DNA of 50,060 bases from Haloarcula marismortui ATCC 43049 (GTDB lineage Archaea > Halobacteriota > Halobacteria > Halobacteriales > Haloarculaceae): the NCBI RefSeq assembly GCF_000011085.1, contig NC_006392.1, forward strand, positions 1-50,060, read 5' to 3'. The notes below the pieces were generated by a model, which was not told the DNA's origin, made no database searches, and was given only the letters and a program-made list of their open reading frames with translations. How positions within the stretch are numbered: the stretch's first letter is position 1; every line of letters starts with the position of its first letter. Position numbers and translations under genes: made by a program. This document shows, piece after piece, positions 3,065 to 49,600 of the stretch.

Positions 3065-3602
3065 CTCTGCTTTGTCGATATCTTCGTCGACGATGACTCG
3101 CTGGCAGGCGTTAGACGAACTCCAGCAGGCCGGTGTGTCGGTGTTCGTCTCGATGTCACCCACATACCCGACGATGGGCGAAGACGACTTTCACGAGCTA
3201 CTCAGCTACTTTAGAGCGCTCGGCGAGGTTGTCGTCTTCCACGAACCAATCAATCCCCGTGGCGCGAATTTCCAGCAGTGTCTCACCGCCGCCAAAGAAG
3301 CCGGCTACGACGACGTTGTCACCGAACTCCAGCAGATGCAGGACAGCCACCAGTACTGGGTCGAGTACGCCCTCGAACAACTCAACACGGTTCAGCAAGT
3401 CGCAACGCGCTTTGACGGGCTCGAAATCCATTCCTGGCCAGACGATGAGTTGGTGCGCTCGACGAGCGGCCAGCTGCGGTCGAAGCTCACAGCAATGCAA
3501 CAGGCCGTCTCACCGGAGTCGTTCTCCGGGAAGCAAACAGGTACGTCAGCGGCACAGTCCGGACTGACTGGACAAAAAGGCGCGTTAGACCAGTTGCTCT
3601 AA
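3054..3602 (+). pseudogene. C-terminal remnant of a radical-SAM (SPL-like) protein
   Basis: From the ATG at 3093 the frame reads RWQALDELQQAGVSVFVSMS, then TYPTMGEDDFHELLSYF and VVFHEPINPRGANF. These resemble the last strands of a radical-SAM barrel in SPL-like haloarchaeal proteins. The N-terminal half with the CxxxCxxC iron-sulfur motif is absent, so the product cannot be a working radical-SAM enzyme. The first 13 codons look unrelated and overlap the inverted repeat, which fits a deletion or rearrangement breakpoint. The C-terminal 40 residues are low in complexity. The family assignment is tentative. Confidence 0.45.
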
Positions 3603-34909: not shown

Positions 34910-35012
34910 TATTTTCATCGACCCCCCGGGGGTTGCGGGGGTATTGGCGGTCGACGAAAATAGTGAAGTGAAACCAGGCTAGAAATAGGCTGTGTCCCGG
35001 GAATCGGGCATG
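34910..35012 (+). promoter_or_regulatory. CRISPR leader 1
   Basis: About 103 nt before the first repeat of array 1. It holds an inverted repeat TATTTTCATCGACC (34910-34923) / GGTCGACGAAAATA (34949-34962; one mismatch) around a G/C-rich centre, then GTGAAGTGAAACCAGG and a CCCGGGAATCGGGC-type hairpin next to the repeat. It is nearly identical to leader 2 although the two arrays have different repeats. It should contain the array promoter and adaptation signals. Confidence 0.85.
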
Positions 35013-36696
35013 GTTTCAGACGGACCCTTGGGCGGTTGAAGTCTGTTCGGTGTCTTCGTGGGCGCGTGCGTCGGGATCGGTTTCAGACGGACCCTTGGGC
35101 GGTTGAAGTAAATCCTTCGCCGCACTCTTTGCATAGATGCACTCGTTTCAGACGGACCCTTGGGCGGTTGAAGTGAGGGAGACGCCGACGACCAGGAGGC
35201 TATCCTGCCGTTTCAGACGGACCCTTGGGCGGTTGAAGTCGAGCTCTTGCATGGTCAGAACAGAAAGTCGCGAACGGTTTCAGACGGACCCTTGGGCGGT
35301 TGAAGTGACCCCCGCACTTTCGCAAGGGGCCGCTTAGTGTAAGGTTTCAGACGGACCCTTGGGCGGTTGAAGTTCAGACAGGAGTACCTCGCCGAGTTCC
35401 TCGACGACACGGGTTTCAGACGGACCCTTGGGCGGTTGAAGTCGCGGGTCTGGCTCGATGGCGACGACATCGACATCATGTTTCAGACGGACCCTTGGGC
35501 GGTTGAAGTAGTCGGAATGTGCGTCTTGCTCCCGTCGTCGTTGATGGTTTCAGACGGACCCTTGGGCGGTTGAAGTGGCCAAGACCTCGCGGCGGAACTC
35601 ACACAGTACGTCGTTTCAGACGGACCCTTGGGCGGTTGAAGTGAAGTCCACCGTATCACTGGACCGCGAAGTTCGGAAAGTTTCAGACGGACCCTTGGGC
35701 GGTTGAAGTCGACTGAAAGAGTTGTGCGTGTCGAATCATGAGCGTTTCAGACGGACCCTTGGGCGGTTGAAGTCCCCGCCGGTACTGCGGGGGCTCCAGC
35801 GAGTCGTCTAGTTTCAGACGGACCCTTGGGCGGTTGAAGTCCCCGCCGGTACTGCGGGGGCTCCAGCGAGTCGTCTAGTTTCAGACGGACCCTTGGGCGG
35901 TTGAAGTGGCCCACCGAGTGCTTGTGACCAGCTGCGGCCACCGCGTTTCAGACGGACCCTTGGGCGGTTGAAGTCATGCACGACGGCGACGTGTCGGTGC
36001 TCAACTGCCTGTTTCAGACGGACCCTTGGGCGGTTGAAGTGCCAACACTAGTCACGTCAACAACAGTCCCAAACTGGTTTCAGACGGACCCTTGGGCGGT
36101 TGAAGTCGACTGTCCACGGTATCGTTTATCCGCGCGTCAACGAGTTTCAGACGGACCCTTGGGCGGTTGAAGTGATAGTCACATCAACACTGGTTGTGCC
36201 GTTATTGGTTAGTTTCAGACGGACCCTTGGGCGGTTGAAGTCTGCCGTTGAAGGTCACTCGTATGTCGTCCACCAGAGTTTCAGACGGACCCTTGGGCGG
36301 TTGAAGTCCGGTCGACCTGATTTACAACGTGACTGGCCACGAGGTTTCAGACGGACCCTTGGGCGGTTGAAGTAGCCAAGCCATCAGGGGATCGTCCGCC
36401 GAACCCGTGTTTCAGACGGACCCTTGGGCGGTTGAAGTCCGACGAACGGCCCGATTTGGCCGATCTCCCTGGTTTCAGACGGACCCTTGGGCGGTTGAAG
36501 TATCATCTGGGGGCCGGAAGTGTGGCTGACCGGCGGTTTCAGACGGACCCTTGGGCGGTTGAAGCGACATCCTCGACCACGAAGTCTGGGAGGAAGTCCA
36601 GTTACAGACGGACCCTCGGGTCGTTGAAGCGAGAACGAGGACGGAGACCTCATCCGACTGTTTTGGGTTACAGACGGTCCTTTGAGTGGTTTATCG
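35013..36696 (+). CRISPR. CRISPR array 1, 26 repeats
   Basis: Thirty-nt repeats (start GTTTCAGACGGACCC, end GGGCGGTTGAAGT) recur every 64-68 nt from 35013 to 36565 (24 copies, the last ending in C instead of T), with two decayed copies at 36601 and 36667. The 36601 repeat has the GTTACAG start and GAAGC end of array 2, suggesting the older repeat form. There are 25 spacers of about 34-38 nt. Two adjacent spacers (35774-35810 and 35841-35877) are identical, from a tandem repeat-spacer duplication. Leader-to-trailer direction matches the cas operon that follows. Confidence 0.97.
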
Positions 36697-36738: not shown

Positions 36739-36776
36739 TTCAGCTAGCCGTGCTAGAAGTATATGTGCATGGAGCC
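36739..36776 (+). promoter_or_regulatory. Candidate PcreT: TATA region with CreA target site and TTC PAM
   Basis: TTC (36739-36741), the established PAM of haloarchaeal I-B systems, is followed by AGCTAGCCGTGCTAG. This matches the first 14 nt of the CreA pseudo-spacer (AGCTACCCGTGTTA) except at positions 6 and 12, exactly those flipped out in type I guide-target pairing. The remaining positions match poorly, as expected for a site that is bound but not cut. A TATA-like GTATATGT (36759-36766) lies inside the protospacer, so Cascade binding would block transcription. Confidence 0.7.
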
Positions 36777-36784
36777 ATCTAGTC

Positions 36785-37048
36785 AGAACACAGTCCGGTC
36801 CAACCGGGCTCAGTCAGCAAGCCTGCAACCTGGCGGGAGGAGGCTTGCTGACGCAGCAAATGCCACCAGCCAGACATCGAAATCTGGCCGTGCCAGCAGC
36901 CGCTGCTTTGGCACGGACGGATTTACGATTTGTGGTGGGTGGCAAGGAGATCGCTATGAGATACGAACATACGACCCACCCCACGATGAATTGGCTCAAG
37001 AGAGGGCACATCCGTGCCGATCCTGAAGTGACGGAGACTACAGAGTAG
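36785..37048 (+). ncRNA. creT: CreT-like toxin RNA (candidate)
   Basis: Downstream of the presumed PcreT lies a run of strong stems: CCGGT-CCA-ACCGG (36795-36807), GTCAGCAAGCC/GGCTTGCTGAC (36813-36852), GCCAGA/TCTGGC (36869-36888) and CCGTGCCA/TGGCACGG (36888-36916). AAGGAG (36944-36949) follows, 6 nt before a 30-codon mini-ORF starting ATG-AGA (36956-37048). Known CreT RNAs combine structure, a strong ribosome site and rare AGA codons after the ATG; only one AGA is present here. The exact toxin product is unresolved; a longer in-frame start at 36859 is an alternative. The 5' end is inferred from the TATA position. Confidence 0.5.
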
Positions 37049-37113
37049 TCCCGGACAACACAACCAATTTAGCATCGCCAGTGAATACCGTAACTGTCCC
37101 TACAAAATAGGTA

Positions 37114-37210
37114 CTTACAGATGGCGCAGAATGCTGTTGAAGCAGCTACCCGTGTTACTCGGGAACTCGTAGGGACCTGTTATCAGCTGGCCCCCTGTGG
37201 GGCCGATTAC
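37114..37210 (+). ncRNA. creA: CreA-like antitoxin crRNA (pseudo-repeat, pseudo-spacer, pseudo-repeat)
   Basis: A 30-nt pseudo-repeat (37114-37143) matches the array 2 repeat at 20 of 30 positions, with both ends kept (TTACAGA and GTTGAAGC). It is followed by a 35-nt pseudo-spacer (37144-37178), the normal spacer length, and a second pseudo-repeat (37179-37210: GTTATCAGCTGGCCCCCTGT, then GGGG) with the repeat's G/C stem. Cas6 should process this into one crRNA-like guide. Its seed matches the presumed creT promoter beside a TTC PAM. This is the CreTA organisation described in Haloarcula hispanica, here upstream of cas6 rather than between cas6 and cas8b. Confidence 0.75.
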
Positions 37211-37231: not shown

Positions 37232-37237
37232 TTTATA
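37232..37237 (+). promoter_or_regulatory. TATA box of the cas operon
   Basis: TTTATA in the context GGCTTTATACACATG, 65-70 bp before the cas6 start, with no other TATA-like element nearby. Transcription should begin around 37260 and run through cas2. Confidence 0.45.
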
Positions 37238-37301
37238 CACATGCCAAGTAACAACCATCTTGTTATGACGACTAGACAGACAGTCGAGGTGATGTAATCG
37301 G

Positions 37302-38114
37302 ATGCGGATCCTCGCACGACTCTCTGCACGAACAGACGCCGCCTACGACAATACGTACCACAACAAGCTGCAGGGCCGCATCTGGCAGGCCCTCGAGGAC
37401 AGCAAGTACGACGCCCTCCACGACAAAAACCAGCCAAAACCGTTCGTATACAGCAATCCCTTCCCCCCGCAGGACATGGACGAGGGTGACGAACGAACGC
37501 TCCTGGTTGCCTCGCCCGAGGAATCGCTGCTCGCCCACATCGCCGAGGACCTCACGCACGACCGGGAGCTAAATATCGGCGAGATGCCCTTCCACGTCGA
37601 CAAGGTTTCGCCGCTCGCCCCCGATGTCGGCGAGCCCGGCACCAGCGGCACCATCGAAACTGGGACTGGTCTCCTAGTTCGAATTCCGCCATGGCGCTTC
37701 GACGATTACGGGATGGACGTCAACCACGACCAAGCCGAATTCTGGCGGCCGGAACATACCCTAGAACCGTTTCGGACCCAACTCGAAGCGAACTTGGATA
37801 AGAAGCATCGGCTCTACATGCCTGACTATCTGGCGGGCCCCTCAGATGTTGATGGCGACCTCTTCGACAGCTACGAGCTGATCAAGACTTTCGCCATTCC
37901 CGTGACGCCAACGACTGGTCGGACAGAAGAGTGGGTGCTCAGTAAGTGGCGCTTCGACTACACCGTCCGGGACGACGACCACCGACGGCATCTTAATCTC
38001 GCGCTGGATGTCGGCCTCGGCGAGCGCAACTCGCTGGGCTTCGGGTTCATCAACATCACCGATCAAACGCGCCCTGACGAGACGGAACTGGAGGGGGAGA
38101 ATGCTTTCCCCTGA
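37302..38114 (+). CDS. cas6: Cas6 crRNA-processing endoribonuclease (type I-B)
   Basis: The 270-aa protein cuts pre-crRNA within repeats and leaves the 8-nt 5' handle ending GAAGC or GAAGT. It shows the ferredoxin-like start MRILARLSARTDAAYDNTYH with a catalytic-type His in YHNKLQG. Near the C-terminus it has the Gly-rich loop of Cas6 (DVGLGERNSLGFGF). Size is usual for the family. It is the first cas gene and its end overlaps cas8b by 14 nt, so unlike in some haloarchaea there is no room between cas6 and cas8b for a CreTA module. Confidence 0.92.
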   Translation: MRILARLSARTDAAYDNTYHNKLQGRIWQALEDSKYDALHDKNQPKPFVYSNPFPPQDMDEGDERTLLVASPEESLLAHIAEDLTHDRELNIGEMPFHVDKVSPLAPDVGEPGTSGTIETGTGLLVRIPPWRFDDYGMDVNHDQAEFWRPEHTLEPFRTQLEANLDKKHRLYMPDYLAGPSDVDGDLFDSYELIKTFAIPVTPTTGRTEEWVLSKWRFDYTVRDDDHRRHLNLALDVGLGERNSLGFGFINITDQTRPDETELEGENAFP

Positions 38115-40233
38115 GCAGTTCCGCGAGCGGTACGCGGACACGCTGGCTGATGAACTACCGGACGGCCCGGTCACATCGCTGCGCTCGCTCCAGTATCTCT
38201 ACGGCAAACTGTATACGCTGGCGACAGCAGGCGGTGGCGACTACGCCGCATATCTCACACCCGATGAGGCAGGCGACCTCGTCGATAGCGAAGACAGCCT
38301 CATCGTTGTCCGTGTGGATCTTTCAGGTAATGAACCGCAGCTGGCGACCGACGATCGAGGCCCGGTCTGGGTAACAAAATACACTGACGACCGCGTCGAG
38401 AAGGTAGCTCACTGCAAGTACCCAGCAGCACGCGGTATTGACCATAGCGTCACGCATCAGGCTGGCCGTAACAGTGGTCCCGAGAAGCTTGCCCGCTACG
38501 CGAAGGAGCGGCTAACAAAATGGGCAAAAGACGAGGTTGTGCAGGAGGCAGCAACTGAACACGAGGACGGCTATATCGTCGAAGCACTCGCCGAACTCAG
38601 CGAGGACGAGGCCACCCTGGATGCCATCGAGGAGGCGGTCAAGCGAGAACTGGCCGGCGAGTCGACAACGGCGCTACTCACGGTGCAGGTGAAAGTTGAC
38701 CCAGACGGTGACTACCTCTGGCCTGCAGAGCGTGACGTGTTCCTGGCCGCGATGCGCCGCCGTAAGCTCTCGAAACTGGTCACGAAGAACAAGGCCGACG
38801 ACTCCTCGGGACAGGCCACCGATATCGTCACCGGGGCTTCGACTCGGACCGTCGGAACCTCTGAGGACCCTCAGAACTACTACCTCGGCAAACAACTGGA
38901 GAAATTCCCCGGCCTAGACATCGAGGAGGCGTGGCGAACCCATCCGATCTCCGAAGACGCGGCAGTGACGGTGATGAATGCCGGCACGTTCGTCGAGGCA
39001 TGTACGTACCGCACGTTTGGGACGAAGGTGTATTGTCTTCCGTACGTCTGGGGGACCATCTCAACGTCAGATGCGTTCGACCTATACAAACTACTCTACG
39101 ATGCGACGACAGAAGACGACGGCATGACACCTATCGAACGTCAGTACGAGAACCGGAATACGCTGTTTGGTGACGCCCAACTCCGGTTCTACGTCTCCGC
39201 TGTCATGCCACACCAAATGTCGCGGTACGATGTCTTCGGTGAGACGCTGAACGGCCGGTTGCTCTATCCCAAAGAGCTCGCAACCAAGCACAACCAGTTG
39301 GTGCAGCAGTCAGCCGCGTTCCACTCCGGGGCGGAATGGACACCGCCGATGCCGACACACCCGAACTGGGATCTGCTTGCGGGCAGTGACGAGCAACTCC
39401 ATGCCGTCTCGACGGGGTGGTACTTCGCTCAGACGTTCGCACAGCGCGACGACGACGATGCCGACGCAGATGATCCCCGTATTGAGGCGCTCGTCAGCGT
39501 CCTCAGCGGCGATGCTATTTCGGTCGAAACGCTGCTCGAAGAATATGTTGCACGCATTATAACCGAACAGACCGACGACGACGTCGAAGGCTTCCCGTCG
39601 TTCCGCGTCGCCAGTCAGTTCGCCCAGTTATGTGCACTCGCGACAGACAAACTCGACCTACTGACATCCGACGACGCGGCCAAAGAACCGATCACGCGCG
39701 AACCGACCTACGATACACAGACGATGGAACCACCAACAGACATACTCGCCGCCGACGGCGGCCATCCCGCGGCGGCAAAGCTCGAATCGTTCATCGAAGA
39801 TACGCCGGCACTCGCTCCTGACGAAGACGCACCTCACAACGACCAGCGACGCGGTGCGTTCCTGCTCGGTGCGCTGGTTGGCGAGATCGGGAGCTATCAG
39901 GAGTACGACCAAGACCGGTCTACGACACTTGTTGATCAGTTCCCAGTCAAATCAATCACCAAGTCGCGAATCAAGAAGGTGACACAGGAGACCATCGGCA
40001 AGACGCTCACATACACCCGCCAAGAAAAGAAAGCGGGTCAGAGCTACCCGGGAACAAAGGCCGAGCACGTCGTCGAGCGGCTCCGCGAGACGATCCTCAA
40101 ACCTGATCCCGACGAATGGGATCTCGATACCGACGACCTCCGCTTCTACTATGCGCTGGGGGTCACCTATGGGATGAACGACCATCCGGAGTGGGATAGC
40201 ACGGCAATTGACGACACTGAGGAGGACATCTGA
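38101..40233 (+). CDS. cas8b: Cas8b large subunit of Cascade
   Basis: The 710-aa protein is the large subunit that recognises the PAM and recruits Cas3. The start MLSPEQFRERYADTLADELP at 38101 is preferred to a frame opening at 38008 inside cas6. Haloarchaeal Cas8b proteins are about 700 aa and diverge strongly; identification rests on length, the position between cas6 and cas7, and family-like stretches such as SLRSLQYLYGKLYTLATAGG. No HD or nuclease motif is visible. cas7 starts one base after its stop codon. Confidence 0.85.
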   Translation: MLSPEQFRERYADTLADELPDGPVTSLRSLQYLYGKLYTLATAGGGDYAAYLTPDEAGDLVDSEDSLIVVRVDLSGNEPQLATDDRGPVWVTKYTDDRVEKVAHCKYPAARGIDHSVTHQAGRNSGPEKLARYAKERLTKWAKDEVVQEAATEHEDGYIVEALAELSEDEATLDAIEEAVKRELAGESTTALLTVQVKVDPDGDYLWPAERDVFLAAMRRRKLSKLVTKNKADDSSGQATDIVTGASTRTVGTSEDPQNYYLGKQLEKFPGLDIEEAWRTHPISEDAAVTVMNAGTFVEACTYRTFGTKVYCLPYVWGTISTSDAFDLYKLLYDATTEDDGMTPIERQYENRNTLFGDAQLRFYVSAVMPHQMSRYDVFGETLNGRLLYPKELATKHNQLVQQSAAFHSGAEWTPPMPTHPNWDLLAGSDEQLHAVSTGWYFAQTFAQRDDDDADADDPRIEALVSVLSGDAISVETLLEEYVARIITEQTDDDVEGFPSFRVASQFAQLCALATDKLDLLTSDDAAKEPITREPTYDTQTMEPPTDILAADGGHPAAAKLESFIEDTPALAPDEDAPHNDQRRGAFLLGALVGEIGSYQEYDQDRSTTLVDQFPVKSITKSRIKKVTQETIGKTLTYTRQEKKAGQSYPGTKAEHVVERLRETILKPDPDEWDLDTDDLRFYYALGVTYGMNDHPEWDSTAIDDTEEDI

Positions 40234-40234
40234 T

Positions 40235-41308
40235 ATGACAGACACCACCGACATCGCCCAGCATCGCTCCGAAATCGTCTTTCTGTACGACGCCGTCGAC
40301 GCGAACCCGAATGGCAACCCGCTGAGCAGCGCGAACCGGCCACGCATCGACCCACAGACTCAGCAGGCAATCGTCACTGATGTCCGGTTGAAACGATATC
40401 TCAGGGACCAACTGGACGACGACGGGCACGGAGTCTATATCCGGAACGTCCAAGAGGAGGGTGAGCAGTACACTCGGGCCGACCTGCTCGAAGATCGTCT
40501 CAAATCCGTCGATTACGACAGCTACGACCTCGACGACGACGAGGAAGCTGAACAGTTCCGTGAGGATGTCTTCGGAGAGTACTTACGGAAAAGTGCCGAT
40601 GTCCGGTATTTCGGGGCAACGATGTCCGTCGATACGGATGACGTGTACGCCAAGCATCTCCCGGATCACTTTACCGGGCCGGTTCAGTTCTCGCCCGGCA
40701 AAACGATGCACGCAGTCAATGAAAACGAGGAGTACGACAGTCTGACCAGCGTCATCGCAACTCAAGAAGGTAAAGAGCAGGGAGGATTCGATCTCGACGA
40801 CCACCGTATCCAGTACGGACTCATCCGATTCCACGGATTAGTCGACGAACACGGCGCAGCCGACACAAGACTCACTCAAGAAGACGTCGAACGGCTTGAT
40901 ACACTCTGTTGGCGCGCCATCAAGAATCAGACCATCAGCCGGAGTAAGGTCGGACAGGAACCACGCCTCTACTGCCGCGTGGAGTACGCTGACGAGAGTT
41001 TCCACCTCGGTGGGTTGGACAAGGACCTTCGACTCGACGAGGAAGCGTCGAAGGACGACGAGGATCTCCGGAACGTTCGGGATCTCGCTGTCGAGATTGA
41101 CGACTTCGTCGACCGACTCGACGGAGCGGGTGCTCAAGTCGAACGCATCCGCGTAGTCGCAAGTGACGTGTTGCAATTCACGCATGAGGGTGAGCCGGGC
41201 GGGCCGGAACTGTTATACAACGCGCTCCGGGATGCCGTCGGGGCTGACCGCGTTGAGATCATCGACGTGTACGACGAACACCTCGAGACGCTGCCGGCGG
41301 CGGAGTGA
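40235..41308 (+). CDS. cas7: Cas7 (Csh2-type) Cascade backbone subunit
   Basis: The 357-aa protein forms the Cascade filament along the crRNA. The N-terminus HRSEIVFLYDAVDANPNGNP followed by RPRIDPQTQQAIVTDVRLKR is a hallmark of I-B Cas7 (Csh2). YFGATMSVD and SPGKTMHAVN fit the family core. The ATG at 40235 is chosen; nine upstream in-frame codons lie inside cas8b. The stop overlaps the GTG just before cas5. Confidence 0.95.
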   Translation: MTDTTDIAQHRSEIVFLYDAVDANPNGNPLSSANRPRIDPQTQQAIVTDVRLKRYLRDQLDDDGHGVYIRNVQEEGEQYTRADLLEDRLKSVDYDSYDLDDDEEAEQFREDVFGEYLRKSADVRYFGATMSVDTDDVYAKHLPDHFTGPVQFSPGKTMHAVNENEEYDSLTSVIATQEGKEQGGFDLDDHRIQYGLIRFHGLVDEHGAADTRLTQEDVERLDTLCWRAIKNQTISRSKVGQEPRLYCRVEYADESFHLGGLDKDLRLDEEASKDDEDLRNVRDLAVEIDDFVDRLDGAGAQVERIRVVASDVLQFTHEGEPGGPELLYNALRDAVGADRVEIIDVYDEHLETLPAAE

Positions 41309-41310
41309 CG

Positions 41311-42108
41311 ATGTCGCAGGAATCGCTCGACGAGTGGTCGGAGACGGACTCCGACTGGTCTCCGGAGCGGTGCCTCTCGCTGACAGTCCGTGGACCGTGG
41401 GGGCACTTCCGGCGCGTCGAGGGTAACGTGGTCAAGCAGACGTATCGGGTGATGCCCAGAACGACTGTTGCTGGCCTCATCGCGGCTGTTCTTGGAATCG
41501 AGCGAGATGGCTACTACGATCTGTTCGCGCCCGGCCGATCGGCTATCGCCATCGAACCGGTTCGAGGACTGCGAACGCTCAACATGCCGGTAAATGCTCT
41601 TTCGACCGCAGCGGATAACCTCAAATCCCTCAACAGCCGCGGGAAACTCAGCGTGAAGCTTCCGGACCCGATGGATCTCAGACAGCAGCACAATTACGAA
41701 GTGCTCGTTGACCCGGCGTACCGAATCGACGTTGCGCTCGCCGACAGCGAAACGTACCGAGAGCTTCGGCAGACCCTAGAGGCCGGTCGGTCCCACTACG
41801 TCCCAAGCCTCGGCCTCTCGGAACACCTCGCGAATATATCATTCCACGGCGAGTTTACCATCGAAGAGGGTCCAGATGACACTGTCGTCTCAGTCGACTC
41901 CACACTCCCCAACGCTGTTGACGATGTCGTCCTTGACTCGGATACCCGCTGTGGCATCGAGGAGTCACCGGCATTCATGACGACTGATGCGGGCGGTCGG
42001 ACGACCACAGCATTCACTACATACGCATACAACCCGGATGCAGAACCCCTCAGGGTGCGAAATATGCAACCGTCCCGAGTCGACGGACGGACTGTGGTGT
42101 TCGTCTGA
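41311..42108 (+). CDS. cas5: Cas5 Cascade subunit (type I-B)
   Basis: This 265-aa RAMP protein caps the crRNA 5' handle. It has the Cas5 start SLTVRGPWGHFRRVEGNVVK followed by YRVMPRTTVAGLIAAVLGIE, the typical Cas5 N-terminal pattern. The ATG at 41311 is 2 nt past the cas7 stop; an overlapping GTG (41305) is an alternative. The length is normal. Confidence 0.95.
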   Translation: MSQESLDEWSETDSDWSPERCLSLTVRGPWGHFRRVEGNVVKQTYRVMPRTTVAGLIAAVLGIERDGYYDLFAPGRSAIAIEPVRGLRTLNMPVNALSTAADNLKSLNSRGKLSVKLPDPMDLRQQHNYEVLVDPAYRIDVALADSETYRELRQTLEAGRSHYVPSLGLSEHLANISFHGEFTIEEGPDDTVVSVDSTLPNAVDDVVLDSDTRCGIEESPAFMTTDAGGRTTTAFTTYAYNPDAEPLRVRNMQPSRVDGRTVVFV

Positions 42109-42109
42109 G

Positions 42110-44719
42110 ATGACCACTATCTACTCACATCCGCCGGAGAACGGATCTGAGGGAGTGGTGCTCGATGACCACCTGAATGACGTGGCTGCACGTGTCGAGT
42201 ACGTGGTCCCGCCGGGCGCGCGGACACCCGCCGGGGAACCGCTTCGACCAGTAGTCAAGACGCTCGGGTACGTCCACGACCTCGGGAAGGCGACGACGTT
42301 TTTTCAGGACTACCTTCTCGATGACCGGCAGCCAGACAATGAACTATTGCGCCACCACGCGCCGCTGGGTGCGTTCGCCGCGTACTTCGCACTCGATGCC
42401 CGCGGGTTCGACACCGAGACGTGCCTGGCGGGGTTCGTCGCGGTTGCAAAACACCACGGGAGCCTCCCAGATATCACGGACTACATCCACACCCGAGCAC
42501 ACCGCCGTGAGGGTGTCGAGCCGAGGGAACGGAACTCGGCGGAGCGGCGGCAGAACGCTGTCGCCAAGCAAATAAAGAATATCGACGACAATGCCCGAGA
42601 GCTGGTCAGCACCGTCTTCGAGGCGGCGACCGCCGGTGCAGAGGAGTGGGCGTCGTTTCGTGACGGGTTCGGCGAACTCCTTGATGACATCGCAGACACG
42701 GTTGCCGCGACCGGCACCACCACTGGTATCAATCGAGACGCCCTCTCTTCGTCCTGTTACGGACTCGTTATCCAGTGCTGGGGGTCACTAGTTCTCGCAG
42801 ACAAGACCAGCGCTGCTGGTGCGCGAAACGTCGCTGAGACATACACAGAAGACCAGCCGTCGCTCGACCGCCTCAACGATCATATCGCGGACATTGAGGC
42901 TTCTGTGAGTGCCGACCCCGATGGGAGTCAGTCAGAACGGCTCAACCATTTGCGGTCGATGGCTCGCGAGGACGTTCTCGATAATGCAGCCGACCTCGCC
43001 AAAGCGGGTGGCGGTGTGGCGACGCTGACGCTCCCGACGGGAATGGGAAAGACCCTCACTGGGTTGTCGGCGGCACTGGATATCCGAGATAACCTCGGTG
43101 GCAAGCGGGTTATCTATGCGCTGCCGTTCACGAGCGTTATCGACCAAGTCGTCGACGATGTTTCGGGCATATACGATACCGATGACCATCCGCACCTACT
43201 TACGGCCCACCACCACCTCGCCGACGCCAGCATTGAGGACAACGCCGACGCGGATGAGGCGGACCGCTCAGACGATGTCGCAGGGATGCTCGGCGAGAGT
43301 TGGCGCGCCGGGCTGACCGTGACGACGTTCGTTCAGTTGTTCGAAAGCCTCGCGGGACCCGGAAACCGTCAGTCGATGAAGCTGCCAGCGCTACGGAACA
43401 GTGTTGTCGTGCTGGACGAGCCACAGAGTCTCCCGCTTGACTGGTGGAAGATCGTCCCGCGCCTCGTCAAGATGTTGACCGAGCAGTTCGGGGCGACCGT
43501 CATTGCCATGACAGCGACCCAACCGAAGCTGTTCCCCGAATCACCGGAACTTGTCGAGGGCCCGGAACAGTACTTCGAGGAAGTCTCACGGGTATCGTAC
43601 CACCTCGACGCGTCAACCGACCGCTACATTGAGGCACGGAATGAGGGAGACCCGAAATCTTACCAAGACGCCGCTACGAACCTGTCCGAGCAACTGACAG
43701 CGGGTACCTCAGCACTAGCAGTCTGTAACACCATCGACAGCGCTCGGCATCTCACCGAGAGGCTTGTCGAGAACGCCCCAGACGCGGTCGATGTCGCCGA
43801 GCAGTACGACGATGTACTCCGCAAGAAGGAACTTACCACCGGTGAGGATGTCGCGAAAAGAGTACAATCTGTCGGCGACCGCGCCATCCTTCATCTTTCC
43901 ACGCGGCTGCGGCCGGCTGATCGGTTGACCCTCGTTGACGCCGCAAAAGAACTTACAGAGGCTGGACACCCGGTCGCCGTCGTCTCGACACAGCTCATCG
44001 AAGCAGGCGTCGACATCAGCTTTGATCGTGTGTACCGGGACCTGGCACCCATCGACAGCGTCGTGCAGGCTGCCGGACGTTGCAACCGCTCGTTCGAGCG
44101 TGACCGTGGCCACGTCACCGTCTGGTGGCTAGCAGCACCGCCCGACGTCGAAAAGACGCCTGCAGAAGCCGTCTACAATCGTGGCACGTCGTTGCTCCCT
44201 GTTGCTGCCGACACCTTGGCGTCGGTTCGCTCCGACGACGGCGAACTGACGGAACGAGCGGTTGCTAGGGACGCCGTCGAACGGTATTATGACCGGCTCC
44301 ACGACGACAAGTGCGTCGGGAAACAGGCCTACGCCGACTACGTCGATAACGCACGGGCCGACAAACTTTCAGACCTATCGCTCATCGACCAACGGCCATC
44401 CGTCGATGTAGTGATTTGCCGGACAGATGCAGACCACGAAATCGTTGAATCAGTACGAAACGCCGCCAATGCATACGATTTCGATGCATTCAGTGATGCG
44501 ATCGACGAGACGAAGTCGCTCCGTATCTCTGTGCCGGTGTATCCCGGCGATGACGAGACGAAAGAAGCACTCAACAGCCTCGTCCCGCTGGTCAAGAACG
44601 AACGATTCAATCGGGCAACTGGCGTCCGCGTGCTCGACGTCCGCCGATTCGAGAACCATTTCGATCAACGAACGGGGTTCATCGTTCCCGATAGCACCGT
44701 AGCACATCAGTTCATATGA
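42110..44719 (+). CDS. cas3: Cas3 HD-nuclease/helicase
   Basis: The 869-aa effector unwinds and degrades targets marked by Cascade. The N-terminal HD domain shows YVHDLGKATTFFQDYL (His56-Asp57), LRHHAPLGAFAAYF and KHHGSLPD. The helicase has TLPTGMGKTLTGL (Walker A, about residue 311), VLDEPQSLPLDWW (DExx-box variant DEPQ), MTATQPKL (motif III), and STQLIEAGVDISFD with QAAGRCNR (motifs V and VI). HD and helicase are fused, as in most type I systems. The start at 42110 is one base beyond the cas5 stop, and the end overlaps cas4 by 4 bp. Confidence 0.96.
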   Translation: MTTIYSHPPENGSEGVVLDDHLNDVAARVEYVVPPGARTPAGEPLRPVVKTLGYVHDLGKATTFFQDYLLDDRQPDNELLRHHAPLGAFAAYFALDARGFDTETCLAGFVAVAKHHGSLPDITDYIHTRAHRREGVEPRERNSAERRQNAVAKQIKNIDDNARELVSTVFEAATAGAEEWASFRDGFGELLDDIADTVAATGTTTGINRDALSSSCYGLVIQCWGSLVLADKTSAAGARNVAETYTEDQPSLDRLNDHIADIEASVSADPDGSQSERLNHLRSMAREDVLDNAADLAKAGGGVATLTLPTGMGKTLTGLSAALDIRDNLGGKRVIYALPFTSVIDQVVDDVSGIYDTDDHPHLLTAHHHLADASIEDNADADEADRSDDVAGMLGESWRAGLTVTTFVQLFESLAGPGNRQSMKLPALRNSVVVLDEPQSLPLDWWKIVPRLVKMLTEQFGATVIAMTATQPKLFPESPELVEGPEQYFEEVSRVSYHLDASTDRYIEARNEGDPKSYQDAATNLSEQLTAGTSALAVCNTIDSARHLTERLVENAPDAVDVAEQYDDVLRKKELTTGEDVAKRVQSVGDRAILHLSTRLRPADRLTLVDAAKELTEAGHPVAVVSTQLIEAGVDISFDRVYRDLAPIDSVVQAAGRCNRSFERDRGHVTVWWLAAPPDVEKTPAEAVYNRGTSLLPVAADTLASVRSDDGELTERAVARDAVERYYDRLHDDKCVGKQAYADYVDNARADKLSDLSLIDQRPSVDVVICRTDADHEIVESVRNAANAYDFDAFSDAIDETKSLRISVPVYPGDDETKEALNSLVPLVKNERFNRATGVRVLDVRRFENHFDQRTGFIVPDSTVAHQFI

Positions 44720-45288
44720 CTGAATCGAGGACAGACAATAGTGAGGATCCAGTTGAGAAACTGCTCCGTTCAGCTCGTGATGAGGCCGTCAACGACCCAT
44801 TTCACGTTACCGGCGTGATGATGCAGTACTATGAGGTCTGTGAACGGGAGCTCTGGTTCGCCTCGCGGCATCTCGAAATCGACCGAGACAACACTGCAGT
44901 CGTCCGCGGTACACAGGTCGACGAGAGTGCATACGACGACAAGCGTCGTAACGTATCCATCGACGGAACCATCGCTATCGATGTCTTGGACGACGGCCGA
45001 GTGATGGAGGTGAAGCCCTCCTCATCACTCATCAAACCAGCAAAACTCCAGTTACTCTATTATCTTTGGTATCTTGATCAGGTCGTCGGCGTCGAACGGG
45101 AGGGCGTACTTGCCCATCCGACGGAGCGCAAACGCGAGACTGTGGCACTCACCGATGAGAACACCAGGTGGGTCGAAGAGGCAATCCGCGGCATCTACGA
45201 CGTCACCACCAGTGACTCGCCACCGCCTGCGGAAGAAAAGCCGTTCTGTGAATCCTGTGCATACCACGACTTTTGTTGGAGTTGTTAG
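44716..45288 (+). CDS. cas4: Cas4 adaptation nuclease
   Basis: This 190-aa RecB-like nuclease trims prespacers and defines their PAM side. It has a cysteine in YYEVCERELWFASRHLE, the catalytic GTQVDE, then TIAIDVLDDGRVMEVKPSSS (D...E-x-K) and three C-terminal cysteines (CESCAYHDFCWSC) that with the first hold a 4Fe-4S cluster. It is coupled to cas3 by ATGA overlap. cas1 starts three bases after the stop. Confidence 0.95.
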   Translation: MTESRTDNSEDPVEKLLRSARDEAVNDPFHVTGVMMQYYEVCERELWFASRHLEIDRDNTAVVRGTQVDESAYDDKRRNVSIDGTIAIDVLDDGRVMEVKPSSSLIKPAKLQLLYYLWYLDQVVGVEREGVLAHPTERKRETVALTDENTRWVEEAIRGIYDVTTSDSPPPAEEKPFCESCAYHDFCWSC

Positions 45289-45290
45289 TC

Positions 45291-46283
45291 ATGAACGATA
45301 ACTATCACGTATTCACCGACGGCCGTCTTGAACGACACAACGACACGATCCGCCTCGTCACTGAGGACGGCGAAAAAAAGTACCTGCCAATCGAGAACGC
45401 CGAAGCGCTGTTCTTACACGGGCAGATTGACTATAATACTCGGCTCGTCTCGTTTCTCAACGACGTCGGCGTTGCGATACACGTCTTTGGCTGGAATGAC
45501 TACTACGCAGGTTCGATCATGCCTGAGCGGGGGCAGACATCTGGACAGACGCTGGTCGAACAAGTCAGAGCTTATGACGATTCGACCCGGCGACGTGCCA
45601 TCGCCCGTCAGTTCATCGAGGGAAGCATCCACAACATGCGAGCGAACGTCAAGTACTACGACGACCGTGGTTACGATTTCGATGCCATCATCGACCGTTT
45701 AGAAGCCCAAGCTGAATCGCTCTCCGACGAGATGGATACAAACGAGTTGATGGGGGTTGAGGCAACTGCTAGAAAGGCGTACTACTCAATCTTCGACGAT
45801 GTACTCCCAGATGGGTTCGATTTCGGCGGTCGGCAATACAACCCGCCAGACAATGAAGTAAACAGTCTAATCTCGTTCGGTAACTCATTAGTCTACGCCA
45901 ACGTCGTTTCGGCAATCCGAGCGACCGCGCTTGACCCCGCTGTGAGCTTTCTTCACGAACCCGGCGAGCGGCGGTACTCGCTCGCTCTCGACATCGCAGA
46001 TCTGTTCAAGCCACTCTTGGCCGACCGAATCATCTTTCGCGTCGTCAACCGCAATCAGCTACAACTCGACGATTTCGAGTCGGATCTCAACGGCTGTCTA
46101 CTCAACGAAAACGGACGGAAAACCTTCTCAAAAGCGTTCGAAGAAAGCCTAGAGCAGACCGTTGATCATCCGAGATTGAACAGGAAGGTGAGCTACCAGT
46201 ACTTGCTCCGAGTCGAGGTGTACAAACTAAAAAAGCACCTGCTCACTGGTGAGGAGTATGTCCCGTTCAAGCGGTGGTGGTAA
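45291..46283 (+). CDS. cas1: Cas1 integrase (type I-B)
   Basis: The 330-aa integrase joins new spacers to the array. The N-terminal beta domain contains RLVTEDGEKKYLPIENAEAL and FLHGQIDYNTRLVSFLNDVG. The catalytic helical domain has the expected Glu, His and Asp region (LISFGNSLVYANVVSAIRAT, VSFLHEPGERRYSLALDIAD). The ATG at 45291 is selected. Its C-terminus ends 2 bp before cas2. Confidence 0.96.
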   Translation: MNDNYHVFTDGRLERHNDTIRLVTEDGEKKYLPIENAEALFLHGQIDYNTRLVSFLNDVGVAIHVFGWNDYYAGSIMPERGQTSGQTLVEQVRAYDDSTRRRAIARQFIEGSIHNMRANVKYYDDRGYDFDAIIDRLEAQAESLSDEMDTNELMGVEATARKAYYSIFDDVLPDGFDFGGRQYNPPDNEVNSLISFGNSLVYANVVSAIRATALDPAVSFLHEPGERRYSLALDIADLFKPLLADRIIFRVVNRNQLQLDDFESDLNGCLLNENGRKTFSKAFEESLEQTVDHPRLNRKVSYQYLLRVEVYKLKKHLLTGEEYVPFKRWW

Positions 46284-46285
46284 CC

Positions 46286-46549
46286 ATGGTGTACGCGATA
46301 ATCGTCTACGACGTACAGGCCGATCGGACACCGAAATTTCTCAAATATCTCCGGCGGTATCTCACGCACGTACAGAACTCTGTATTCGAGGGCGAGCTCA
46401 CAGAGGGGACGCTCGTTGAAGTCAAAGAGACCCTCCAATCAATGCTTGAGGAAGAGGAATCCGTGATGGTTTATCGGATGGACTCGGGGAGTTATGTCGA
46501 GCGATCCGTGTACGGTGACGATCCAATGGACGACCAACAATTCCTCTAG
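46286..46549 (+). CDS. cas2: Cas2 adaptation protein
   Basis: The 87-aa protein MVYAIIVYDVQADRTPKFLK has the conserved first-strand Asp (YDV), the helix with YLRRYLTHVQNSVFEGEL and a final beta strand (ESVMVYRMDSGSYVERSVYG), matching Cas2 in length and motifs. It acts as a dimer scaffold for Cas1. Leader 2 begins directly after the stop. Confidence 0.96.
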   Translation: MVYAIIVYDVQADRTPKFLKYLRRYLTHVQNSVFEGELTEGTLVEVKETLQSMLEEEESVMVYRMDSGSYVERSVYGDDPMDDQQFL

Positions 46550-46550
46550 G

Positions 46551-46653
46551 TATTTTCGTCGACCCCCGGGGGGTTGCGGGGGTATTGGCGGTCGACGAAA
46601 ATAGTGAAGTGAAACCAGGCTAGAAATAGGCTGTGTCCCGGAAATCGGGCATG
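46551..46653 (+). promoter_or_regulatory. CRISPR leader 2
   Basis: About 103 nt, almost identical to leader 1 with only a few substitutions. It has a perfect inverted repeat TATTTTCGTCGACC (46551-46564) / GGTCGACGAAAATA (46590-46603), and CCCGGAAATCGGGC next to the first repeat. It begins at the cas2 stop, so the adaptation genes abut the array they extend. It should carry the promoter for pre-crRNA. Confidence 0.85.
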
Positions 46654-49600
46654 GTTACAGACGGACCCTCGTGGGGTTGAAGCGTGGCACCGGTTGAGTC
46701 GCTGACCGCCGGCGCGTACGCGTTACAGACGGACCCTCGTGGGGTTGAAGCCTGTAGGCCGCCAGCACGAGCACGGCCCAGAGCGGGTTACAGACGGACC
46801 CTCGTGGGGTTGAAGCAGACCCTCCCCTCGTGGATGCACTCGGCACAGTAGCGTTACAGACGGACCCTCGTGGGGTTGAAGCCGGCTCTGAGTATGAGGG
46901 AGTCCTGTTCAGCCAAGAGTTACAGACGGACCCTCGTGGGGTTGAAGCGTGGTGAAGTCGCCCGCAGCGTATTCGAGCTTGTCCTGTTACAGACGGACCC
47001 TCGTGGGGTTGAAGCCTGCGGCGGCTGTTTGAGTTGTACCTTTCGCTGGTCGTTACAGACGGACCCTCGTGGGGTTGAAGCGACTGCCGGAACCAGAATA
47101 CCGGCACAAAGTACGAGGTTACAGACGGACCCTCGTGGGGTTGAAGCATCGACTGCCCGAGAGACCCATGATTGCGAATAGTGTTACAGACGGACCCTCG
47201 TGGGGTTGAAGCGCCGCAACGAAGCCCGGCAGGAACTGGGGCGTGACGAGTTACAGACGGACCCTCGTGGGGTTGAAGCTCGAAGAGCGCGATCGGGGCG
47301 AGAGGTTTGACGTGCGTTACAGACGGACCCTCGTGGGGTTGAAGCGCGTTGGTCGAGTTTGACCGTGCCGTAGATTGTCGCGGTTACAGACGGACCCTCG
47401 TGGGGTTGAAGCTCCGAGACGATGCACGCGCTTGCCCAGCAGTTGTGGTTACAGACGGACCCTCGTGGGGTTGAAGCGACCCACAGGAAACACTTTTCGC
47501 CTCACCAACTCTGGTTACAGACGGACCCTCGTGGGGTTGAAGCAACCCACTCACGGCGGCGAAGGACGCGCTGACGATCGTTACAGACGGACCCTCGTGG
47601 GGTTGAAGCGGCCGGCACGGCGTCACGCGAGAGATGTGTCCTTGCGTTACAGACGGACCCTCGTGGGGTTGAAGCGGATCACGGTACAGATGCGGCGACA
47701 ACTACGCGAAGTTACAGACGGACCCTCGTGGGGTTGAAGCGGAAACATCTACGCGCGCACCAGCCTGCTCGGAAACTGTTACAGACGGACCCTCGTGGGG
47801 TTGAAGCTGGTACTCCTCGCGCGTGGTGGGGTACGAGGCCGTCGGTTACAGACGGACCCTCGTGGGGTTGAAGCCCCGACGGCGGCGACGGTATCCCGGA
47901 GGACAAGACCGTTACAGACGGACCCTCGTGGGGTTGAAGCTGCCATATCCACGAGCCCTTTGACATCGCCGTCCTGGTTACAGACGGACCCTCGTGGGGT
48001 TGAAGCGAGCAAGACGAGTGGCTCCAGTTCCCGACCGCCGCGTTACAGACGGACCCTCGTGGGGTTGAAGCAAACAGCGCGAGGATATTGTTCAGGCCGT
48101 CGAACAGGGTTACAGACGGACCCTCGTGGGGTTGAAGCTTCGACCGCTTCGGCGGCTGGGAATGGTCGTCGACTGTTACAGACGGACCCTCGTGGGGTTG
48201 AAGCCTGATATGTACTGCTAAGAGGTCATCTCGGATACCGTTACAGACGGACCCTCGTGGGGTTGAAGCGTACTCGTCACACCACGGGCACACGCCGTCG
48301 TCAATCGTTACAGACGGACCCTCGTGGGGTTGAAGCCAGTGGGACGTGTTCGGCCATGCCGTAGATAGACAGGTTACAGACGGACCCTCGTGGGGTTGAA
48401 GCTCTACTACCCTATCGACGACGCCGAAATTTCGCCCAGTTACAGACGGACCCTCGTGGGGTTGAAGCTGGACGGCCTCCGCACTGTCCTCACCATCGTC
48501 CTCGTTACAGACGGACCCTCGTGGGGTTGAAGCTTGATTGAACTATCCACGTCGCGTTTGTGTGCCTCGTTACAGACGGACCCTCGTGGGGTTGAAGCAT
48601 GAGGTTGTTTGGGACACTGCTATTCGGCCGCGGTTACAGACGGACCCTCGTGGGGTTGAAGCATCGCCACACTCCCCAGCGCGGTCAGCAGCCCGACGGT
48701 TACAGACGGACCCTCGTGGGGTTGAAGCAACGACCGGTACATGATTGAGTGGCGCGAGGGTCCGGTTACAGACGGACCCTCGTGGGGTTGAAGCGACGGC
48801 GTCGACTGTGGGTCACTGTTACCGTCGCGTTACAGACGGACCCTCGTGGGGTTGAAGCATCCGCAGTGGGCCCGATGACATCTACGTGTATCCGGGTTAC
48901 AGACGGACCCTCGTGGGGTTGAAGCAAGAACGATATGGGTGTTAGGTCGCACCATTCGCAGAGTTACAGACGGACCCTCGTGGGGTTGAAGCGACTACGT
49001 CTACCCCGAGGAGGAGGTGCGCGACTGGGTTACAGACGGACCCTCGTGGGGTTGAAGCACCATAGTACCATCATGGCACTCTGGACTTATAGTGTTACAG
49101 ACGGACCCTCGTGGGGTTGAAGCCTGGAGCGCATCGTAGTGCACGCCGCGGTCGTTCGCTCGTTACAGACGGACCCTCGTGGGGTTGAAGCTCGACACCA
49201 TCAACGGGTTGCTCGGCGACGGGACGGTTACAGACGGACCCTCGTGGGGTTGAAGCCCCGCCCACTTGTTGCTCATGTAGACCTTTCCTGACGTTACAGA
49301 CGGACCCTCGTGGGGTTGAAGCACACTCTCGCACTCGATCCCGGACCTGCTGGGATCGTTACAGACGGACCCTCGTGGGGTTGAAGCCCGTCGAAGGACC
49401 GCCTTGGGTGGTGTACTCGGCGGGTTACAGACGGACCCTCGTGGGGTTGAAGCTTGCGGACCCGGCGGCGATGGACGACGATGTCGGCGTTACAGACGGA
49501 CCCTCGTGGGGTTGAAGCCATTAGCGAGATTAGCGGTATGGGTTCCATCATCCCAGTTACAGACGGACCCTCGTGGGGTTGAAGCGAGGACAGCGTCTTT

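Follow-up and report, generated by a model that had tools for sequence, protein, structure and literature searches.

The CreTA module beside the type I-B cas genes of Haloarcula marismortui, part of a clustered regularly interspaced short palindromic repeats (CRISPR) system, raises the question of what its toxin, CreT, is made of. The stretch of DNA analyzed here (the window, 50,060 nucleotides [nt]) is presumably plasmid pNG400 of H. marismortui ATCC 43049. Plasmid pNG400 is reported to have a GC content of 57.3% and to carry a CRISPR/Cas locus (PMC3402447), and the GC content of the window, 57.3%, is equal to the published value. Between the CreA target site and creA, we found an open reading frame (ORF) of 30 codons that appears to belong to a previously unnoticed conserved family of microproteins of 30 to 60 amino acids (aa), and this microprotein is probably the toxin.

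The creTA module of the window

A sequence-only reading of the window had proposed a CreTA-like module at this position. That assignment is right; the module has already been published for H. marismortui (PMC8501985, PMC9458426), and the one in the window is almost certainly the same. Sequencing of small RNAs from strain ATCC 43049 detected a two-repeat creA and an extra form with one handle (PMC8501985). The creT genes of H. mediterranei, H. mukohataei, H. marismortui, and Natrinema J7-2 each gave ~10,000-fold fewer H. hispanica transformants, and H. hispanica was able to repress H. marismortui creT once its own repeat had been put in place of the first pseudo-repeat of creA (psiR1) (PMC9458426). 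The accessible text of these papers (PMC8501985, PMC9458426) identifies no mechanism and names no toxin ORF for these four creT toxins, and in the open-access literature (most subscription papers were outside the search), no paper was found that describes a haloarchaeal creT as the source of a peptide toxin.

The creA unit lies between array 1 and cas6, as had been claimed. Of the 30 positions in psiR1, 20 agree with the array-2 repeat and 18 with the array-1 repeat, and the 3'-most 8 nt of psiR1, GTTGAAGC, are the same as the array-2 5' handle. The second pseudo-repeat (psiR2) matches either array repeat at 17 of 30 positions without gaps when placed as in Table 1, while a start at 37179 lowers the matches to 13 and 14. 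With this best placement, the pseudo-spacer (psiS) that had been described is present but has a length of ~36 nt rather than 35 nt. The reported match of psiS after a TTC protospacer-adjacent motif (PAM) was reproduced: positions 1 to 5 and 7 to 11 (36742 to 36752) and positions 13 and 14 match the target, and positions 6 and 12 are mismatched. The string TTCAGCTANCCGTG, which is TTC plus the seed, occurs once in the 4.27-Mb H. marismortui genome (4,274,642 bases in nine contigs), and its reversed control does not occur at all. The window thus has the marks by which CreTA membership is judged, which are degenerate repeats with an intact 5' handle in creA, a 1-to-5 and 7-to-11 seed match to a PAM-flanked site upstream of creT, and a position within or beside a type I cas locus.

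The TATA-like element, structured region, and AAGGAG noted earlier were all found again. Based on the TATA-like element, the CreA target is likely to be at the creT promoter. The RNA that would follow (36786 to 36955) folds with a predicted energy of -92.5 kcal/mol, a z score of -6.86 relative to shuffled sequences.

A conserved microprotein ORF in creT

The ATG-AGA mini-ORF described by the sequence-only reading does exist, but it is only the start of the 30-codon ORF. The AGA at codon 2 is common to the window and G101 (G and L numbers are our labels) and is absent in, e.g., G032, H. mukohataei, and H. mediterranei. A local blastn comparison over cas6 loci matched G101 with 70% identity over 108 nt (E value of 0.002), and this led to an alignment of the window with G101 and G032, both flagged by creA alone, in which a short ORF between the target and creA is common to all three. 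We now count 12 members: the window, G101, G032, H. mukohataei (G119/L049), G285, G217, G297, G222, Natribaculum breve (G322), G360, H. mediterranei (L172), and G049. Their core is P[TF]x[NSD]W[ILR]xx[GS]H, with invariant P, W, and H. Several members were found or recognized by the motif or a profile, and H. mediterranei was chosen because its creTA is published; the motif search also returned many chance ORFs, and ORFs were counted only where profiles support them. The H. mediterranei ORF corresponds to no annotated gene in the plasmid table, which is incomplete, and its peptide matched, among plasmids, only itself and two sequences in unrelated bacteria at an E value of 4. AlphaFold models of the peptide alone are not usable: one has a predicted local distance difference test score of 86.5 (two strands), four have scores of 63 to 68, and the predicted template modeling score is 0.30.

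The pattern of substitution suggests that this ORF is under coding constraint. In the 15-codon core, the 66 pairs of members differ 386, 329, and 638 times at codon positions 1, 2, and 3, respectively, and in 55 of the 66 pairs amino acid identity is above that obtained by random placement of the same substitutions (P < 0.05, 400 rounds each). Between the window and G101, 10 of 15 codons differ, and 7 of these 10 differences are synonymous. Because members chosen by motif inflate identity, the test of reading frame was limited to the five creA-flagged loci, in which the motif frame came out best of all frame pairs in every comparison but G297-G222 (9 of 10).

These same five loci (the window, G101, G032, G297, and G222), which were chosen blind to the protein, also provided a seed profile for measuring the association of the microprotein with creA. 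Among 11,265 ORFs of 110 loci, the other seven members rank first of all non-seed ORFs, with E values of 1.1e-9 to 0.0082, and the next ORF has an E value of 0.16. Six of the seven end 220 to 261 nt before cas6 on the same strand, and G049 is beside a creA of its own; 11 of the 12 members are directly upstream of cas6. All 12 are accompanied by a creA-like unit, with a seed match of 10/10 in nine and 9/10 in three (G285, G217, and G049). Most members came from searches of the region ahead of cas6, and linkage to cas6 is to that extent built in; the five-locus profile and a search of 392 genomes are freer of this circularity. In the latter (a sample of the order, with at most 20 first-look candidates scored per genome), the nine-row profile A1 gave 10 matches with E values no higher than 6.3e-10. 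All 10 are upstream of cas6; nine are rows of the profile itself, and G217 is new. These were followed by G049 at 5.9e-6 and then by matches at 0.002 and weaker. This search detected no convincing copy of the microprotein away from a creA, and 146 genomes of the family and 125 genomes of the family of G360 held no further member at 0.001. At the DNA level, the creTA region had no match in plasmids and, in 98 genomes, matched only itself and short chance-level sequences (E value of 0.0125 or weaker). The microprotein profile offers a way to find creTA modules that DNA similarity misses. Rfam returned CRISPR-DR24 repeats for the window and otherwise two matches far below gathering scores, and no viral contigs with Cas6 were found.

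Two scans for seed matches were made over cas6 loci. The first covered 107 distinct cas6 loci (109 oriented loci with two duplicates removed; L025, which duplicates L023, was not used), including 60 additional regions; weaker and contig-edge cas6 places were left out. Nine loci have a TTC-flanked 10/10 target, including those of H. hispanica (L031) and H. hubeiense (L060), which are the two haloarchaeal modules that have been dissected by experiment. Four of the nine are of the hispanica or hubeiense type, and all of the other five (the window, L039, L040, L077, and L078) carry the microprotein motif; these are the five creA-flagged loci of the seed profile. Non-TTC matches, in most of which the target was an array repeat (L114, L115, and L122) or the locus an array (L131 and L102), were not counted. 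A stricter scan with a single-copy filter covered 109 loci, these 107 plus L172 and L166, which were added by hand after their peptide was seen. Upstream of cas6, it detected 23 single-copy pseudo-repeats, and 13 of them have a 10/10 target within 900 nt, with TTC at the PAM position in 10, TAC in 2, and TAG in 1; shuffled spacers gave 1 match in 20 rounds. When L172 and L166 are left out, 12 of 107 loci have a 10/10 seed upstream of cas6: 8 with the peptide, 3 hubeiense-like (L060, and L087 and L088 by near-identical creA), and 1 with neither (L123). The H. hispanica creTA lies between cas6 and cas8 and falls outside the region that the stricter scan covered.

Three loci differ in other ways. 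In L123 (G104:C5, Halocatena salina NZ_CP096023.1), creA has a 10/10 seed beside TAG, and an unrelated 85-aa ORF with no convincing Pfam family lies between the target and creA; it is possibly a second protein-type CreT. In L023 (Haloarcula mannanilytica), where Cas6 is 90% identical, no creT was seen by eye at about 3310 to 3430, and the array reaches cas6, ending, also by eye, in a degenerate repeat-spacer-repeat with the psiR2-like end ACTTTCACTG. L174 (Natrinema thermotolerans plasmid CP031304.1) has no creA match upstream of cas6 and an annotated IS6 family transposase there, and its creTA may have been lost through insertion.

In order to recognize the known tRNA-sequestering type of toxin, we scanned codons 2 to 8, counted from any ATG or GTG, for a repeated AGA, AGG, or ATA codon. 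Both controls were recovered (ATG AGA AGA in H. hispanica and ATG AAG CCA ATA ATA in H. hubeiense). Tandem rare codons were absent from either strand of 11 of the 12 member loci, the window included; the single case in G360 starts with GTG and lies within the first hairpin of that locus. The creT of the window therefore does not appear to be of the tRNA-sequestering type known from H. hispanica and H. hubeiense. Another four haloarchaeal creTA modules are reported to have no longer ORF starting with minor codons, and distinct mechanisms were suggested for them (PMC8501985); we assume that these are the four whose creT toxicity in H. hispanica is described above.

The positions of all features, including the cas genes downstream of creA, are given in Table 1. 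Both arrays start with a 132-nt stretch (34910 to 35041 and 46551 to 46682; 95% alike) that comprises the leader and the first repeat, although the repeats of the two arrays differ. Array 1 contains an identical spacer twice in succession (35774 to 35810 and 35841 to 35877) and the repeats at its end, at 36601 and about 36667, are decayed.

Table 1. Features of the creTA module and the cas operon in the window
Feature	Coordinates	Strand	Basis or remark
TTC PAM	36739..36741	+	Sequence match; directly before the target
CreA target	36742..36755	+	psiS positions 1-5, 7-11, and 13-14 pair
TATA-like element TATATG of presumed creT promoter, GAAG just upstream	36760..36765	+	Putative function
Highly structured creT leader	36786..36943	+	Start presumed from TATA distance
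Stem-loop I, 12-bp perfect stem	36813..36852	+	Fold and stem search
Shine-Dalgarno-like AAGGAG	36944..36949	+	Sequence
Conserved microprotein ORF, 30 aa, candidate toxin, MRYEHTTHPTMNWLKRGHIRADPEVTETTE	36956..37048	+	Profiles, codon analysis
creA psiR1 (degenerate repeat, intact 5' handle)	37114..37143	+	Repeat comparison
creA pseudo-spacer psiS	37144..37179	+	Repeat comparison; ~36 nt
creA psiR2	37180..37209	+	Ungapped 17/30 to either array repeat; best placement
TATA-like TTTATACA, presumed separate cas promoter	37232..37239	+	Putative function
cas6	37302..38114	+	TIGR01877
cas8b/csh1	38101..40233	+	TIGR02591
cas7/csh2	40235..41308	+	TIGR02590
cas5b	41305..42108	+	TIGR02592
cas3	42110..44719	+	TIGR01587 and TIGR01596
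cas4	44716..45288	+	TIGR00372
cas1	45291..46283	+	TIGR03641 cas1_HMARI
cas2	46274..46549	+	TIGR01573

Peptide, RNA, or regulator

In the mechanism that we favor, Cas6 would cleave the creA transcript at both pseudo-repeats, the product would be loaded into type I-B Cascade, and the 10-nt seed of CreA on the TTC-flanked site at the creT promoter would keep creT silent. Loss or inhibition of Cascade would allow the long, structured creT mRNA to be made and translated into a 30-aa microprotein of the PTxNWxxxGH type, and this microprotein, not sequestration of a rare tRNA, would arrest the cell. The promoter, the transcript start, translation, and the toxicity of the peptide are what we infer from sequence. 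We place at about 0.6 the probability that the H. marismortui microprotein is the toxin and that its mRNA is repressed by Cascade-CreA, and we hold it there because a conserved mini-ORF can, in Acinetobacter, be an RNA toxin. With slightly less assurance, we favor extending this to a group of haloarchaeal CreTA modules in which CreT would be the mRNA for a toxin microprotein family of 30 to 60 aa, distinct from the KilA-N protein CreP, which would explain why the creT genes of H. marismortui, H. mediterranei, and H. mukohataei are toxic.

Several observations weigh against a peptide toxin. The best family matches were at 0.046 for one member to Pfam, 0.39 for one member to PHROG, and 0.1 or weaker to the PDB, and neither NCBIfam nor PADLOC gave a match; therefore, no target is suggested. 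The codon aligned with the start is ATA in G217, and by eye a clear Shine-Dalgarno sequence is lacking in several members. The identity found in the codon analysis is inflated by members chosen by motif or profile. The G217 seed matches at only 9/10 positions, and the 9/10 site of G285 is beside GTC, which is not an accepted PAM (its creA may be decaying). Of the three creA-like loci with a non-TTC seed match in the first scan, L108 has the motif, while L123 and L026, a weak case, do not. In the dissected CreT toxins, the ORF matters as RNA (PMC8501985, PMC10097628), and in Acinetobacter, synonymous changes to the CreT mini-ORF destroyed toxicity although the mini-ORF is conserved (PMC10097628).

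These last two points speak for an RNA toxin. In such a toxin, the leader, or the start of translation on it, would occupy ribosomes or another RNA, with the ORF being a passenger or only a driver of translation. The structure of creT fits such a role as well, since the leader of the window is strongly structured and, without a shuffle control for the relatives, the longest uninterrupted stem is 9 to 13 bp, of differing sequence, in 10 of the 12 members' leaders. In eight of these ten, the long stem begins 52 to 78 nt past the target; G285 (107 nt), G297 (26 nt), G217 (8 bp), and G032 (8 bp, elsewhere) deviate. A loose alignment of hand-cut hairpins keeps one loop C in 12/12. The leader may govern how the mRNA is translated or how stable it is, or the RNA may be active in itself. 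However, the peptide is conserved while its codons drift synonymously; the kind of change that destroyed toxicity in Acinetobacter has been made freely by evolution here. The window also lacks tandem rare codons. Pairing of the stem-loop I loops to 16S rRNA is no better than that of shuffled sequences (23 of 200 reach the sum), and pairing to the anti-Shine-Dalgarno sequence shows only a weak, uncorrected trend (6 of 200) that is too weak to use. We therefore consider an RNA toxin unlikely, while taking it seriously, and the conserved ORF argues for a peptide here even though type VIII CreTA is defined by an RNA toxin.

The members found adjoin creA, and the position of 11 of the 12 ahead of cas6 would also suit a Cascade-linked accessory, e.g., a regulator of Cas proteins, with feedback through CreA setting the level of the microprotein. 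This is improbable, as the creT genes of three organisms that carry the ORF are toxic in H. hispanica (PMC9458426), and no other candidate ORF was identified there. Still harder to credit is a CreR-like role for creA, as an autorepressor of the cas operon instead of an antitoxin. The creA unit immediately precedes cas6, and its target also lies ahead of the operon, but that target is 561 nt from cas6, and a nearer TATA-like element (Table 1) is not the matched site. The toxicity of creT is published, and the published repression of creT after psiR1 replacement largely refutes this reading (PMC9458426). The idea in the sequence-only reading that the module could serve in plasmid addiction is not supported, and we reject it on mechanism alone: creT and its repressor share the plasmid and would be lost together, and no premade toxin is expected. 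The CreTA logic would guard the cas genes and not the replicon.

Comparison with known systems

The conserved microprotein occurs in three of the four toxic haloarchaeal creT genes whose mechanism has been without explanation, since the H. mediterranei and H. mukohataei creTA modules have the same microprotein as the window. The CreTA modules of H. hispanica and H. hubeiense share with the window the 1-to-5 plus 7-to-11 seed, the TTC PAM, degenerate repeats, and linkage to type I-B cas genes. In contrast, their toxin is an AGA AGA or ATA ATA mini-ORF, whereas the window has a conserved peptide instead. If the microprotein is the toxin, then the description of CreTA as an RNA toxin with an RNA antitoxin, classified as type VIII and separate from CrePA with its KilA-N protein (PMC12737573), would change, and the haloarchaeal modules would provide an archaeal, CRISPR-repressed peptide toxin of a new family.

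CrePA resembles the proposed system in having a protein toxin with a promoter repressed by a CRISPR effector and a guide like a CRISPR RNA (PMC12737573). The window family differs in its size of 30 to 60 aa, its archaeal hosts, and its long structured leader, and searches of this family found neither the KilA-N domain typical of CreP nor any other family. A further parallel is with type I toxin-antitoxin modules such as hok, which make a small peptide from a structured, silenced mRNA, as creT would. Modules of the hok type use an antisense RNA for silencing, whereas in the model proposed for the window Cascade would act at the promoter.
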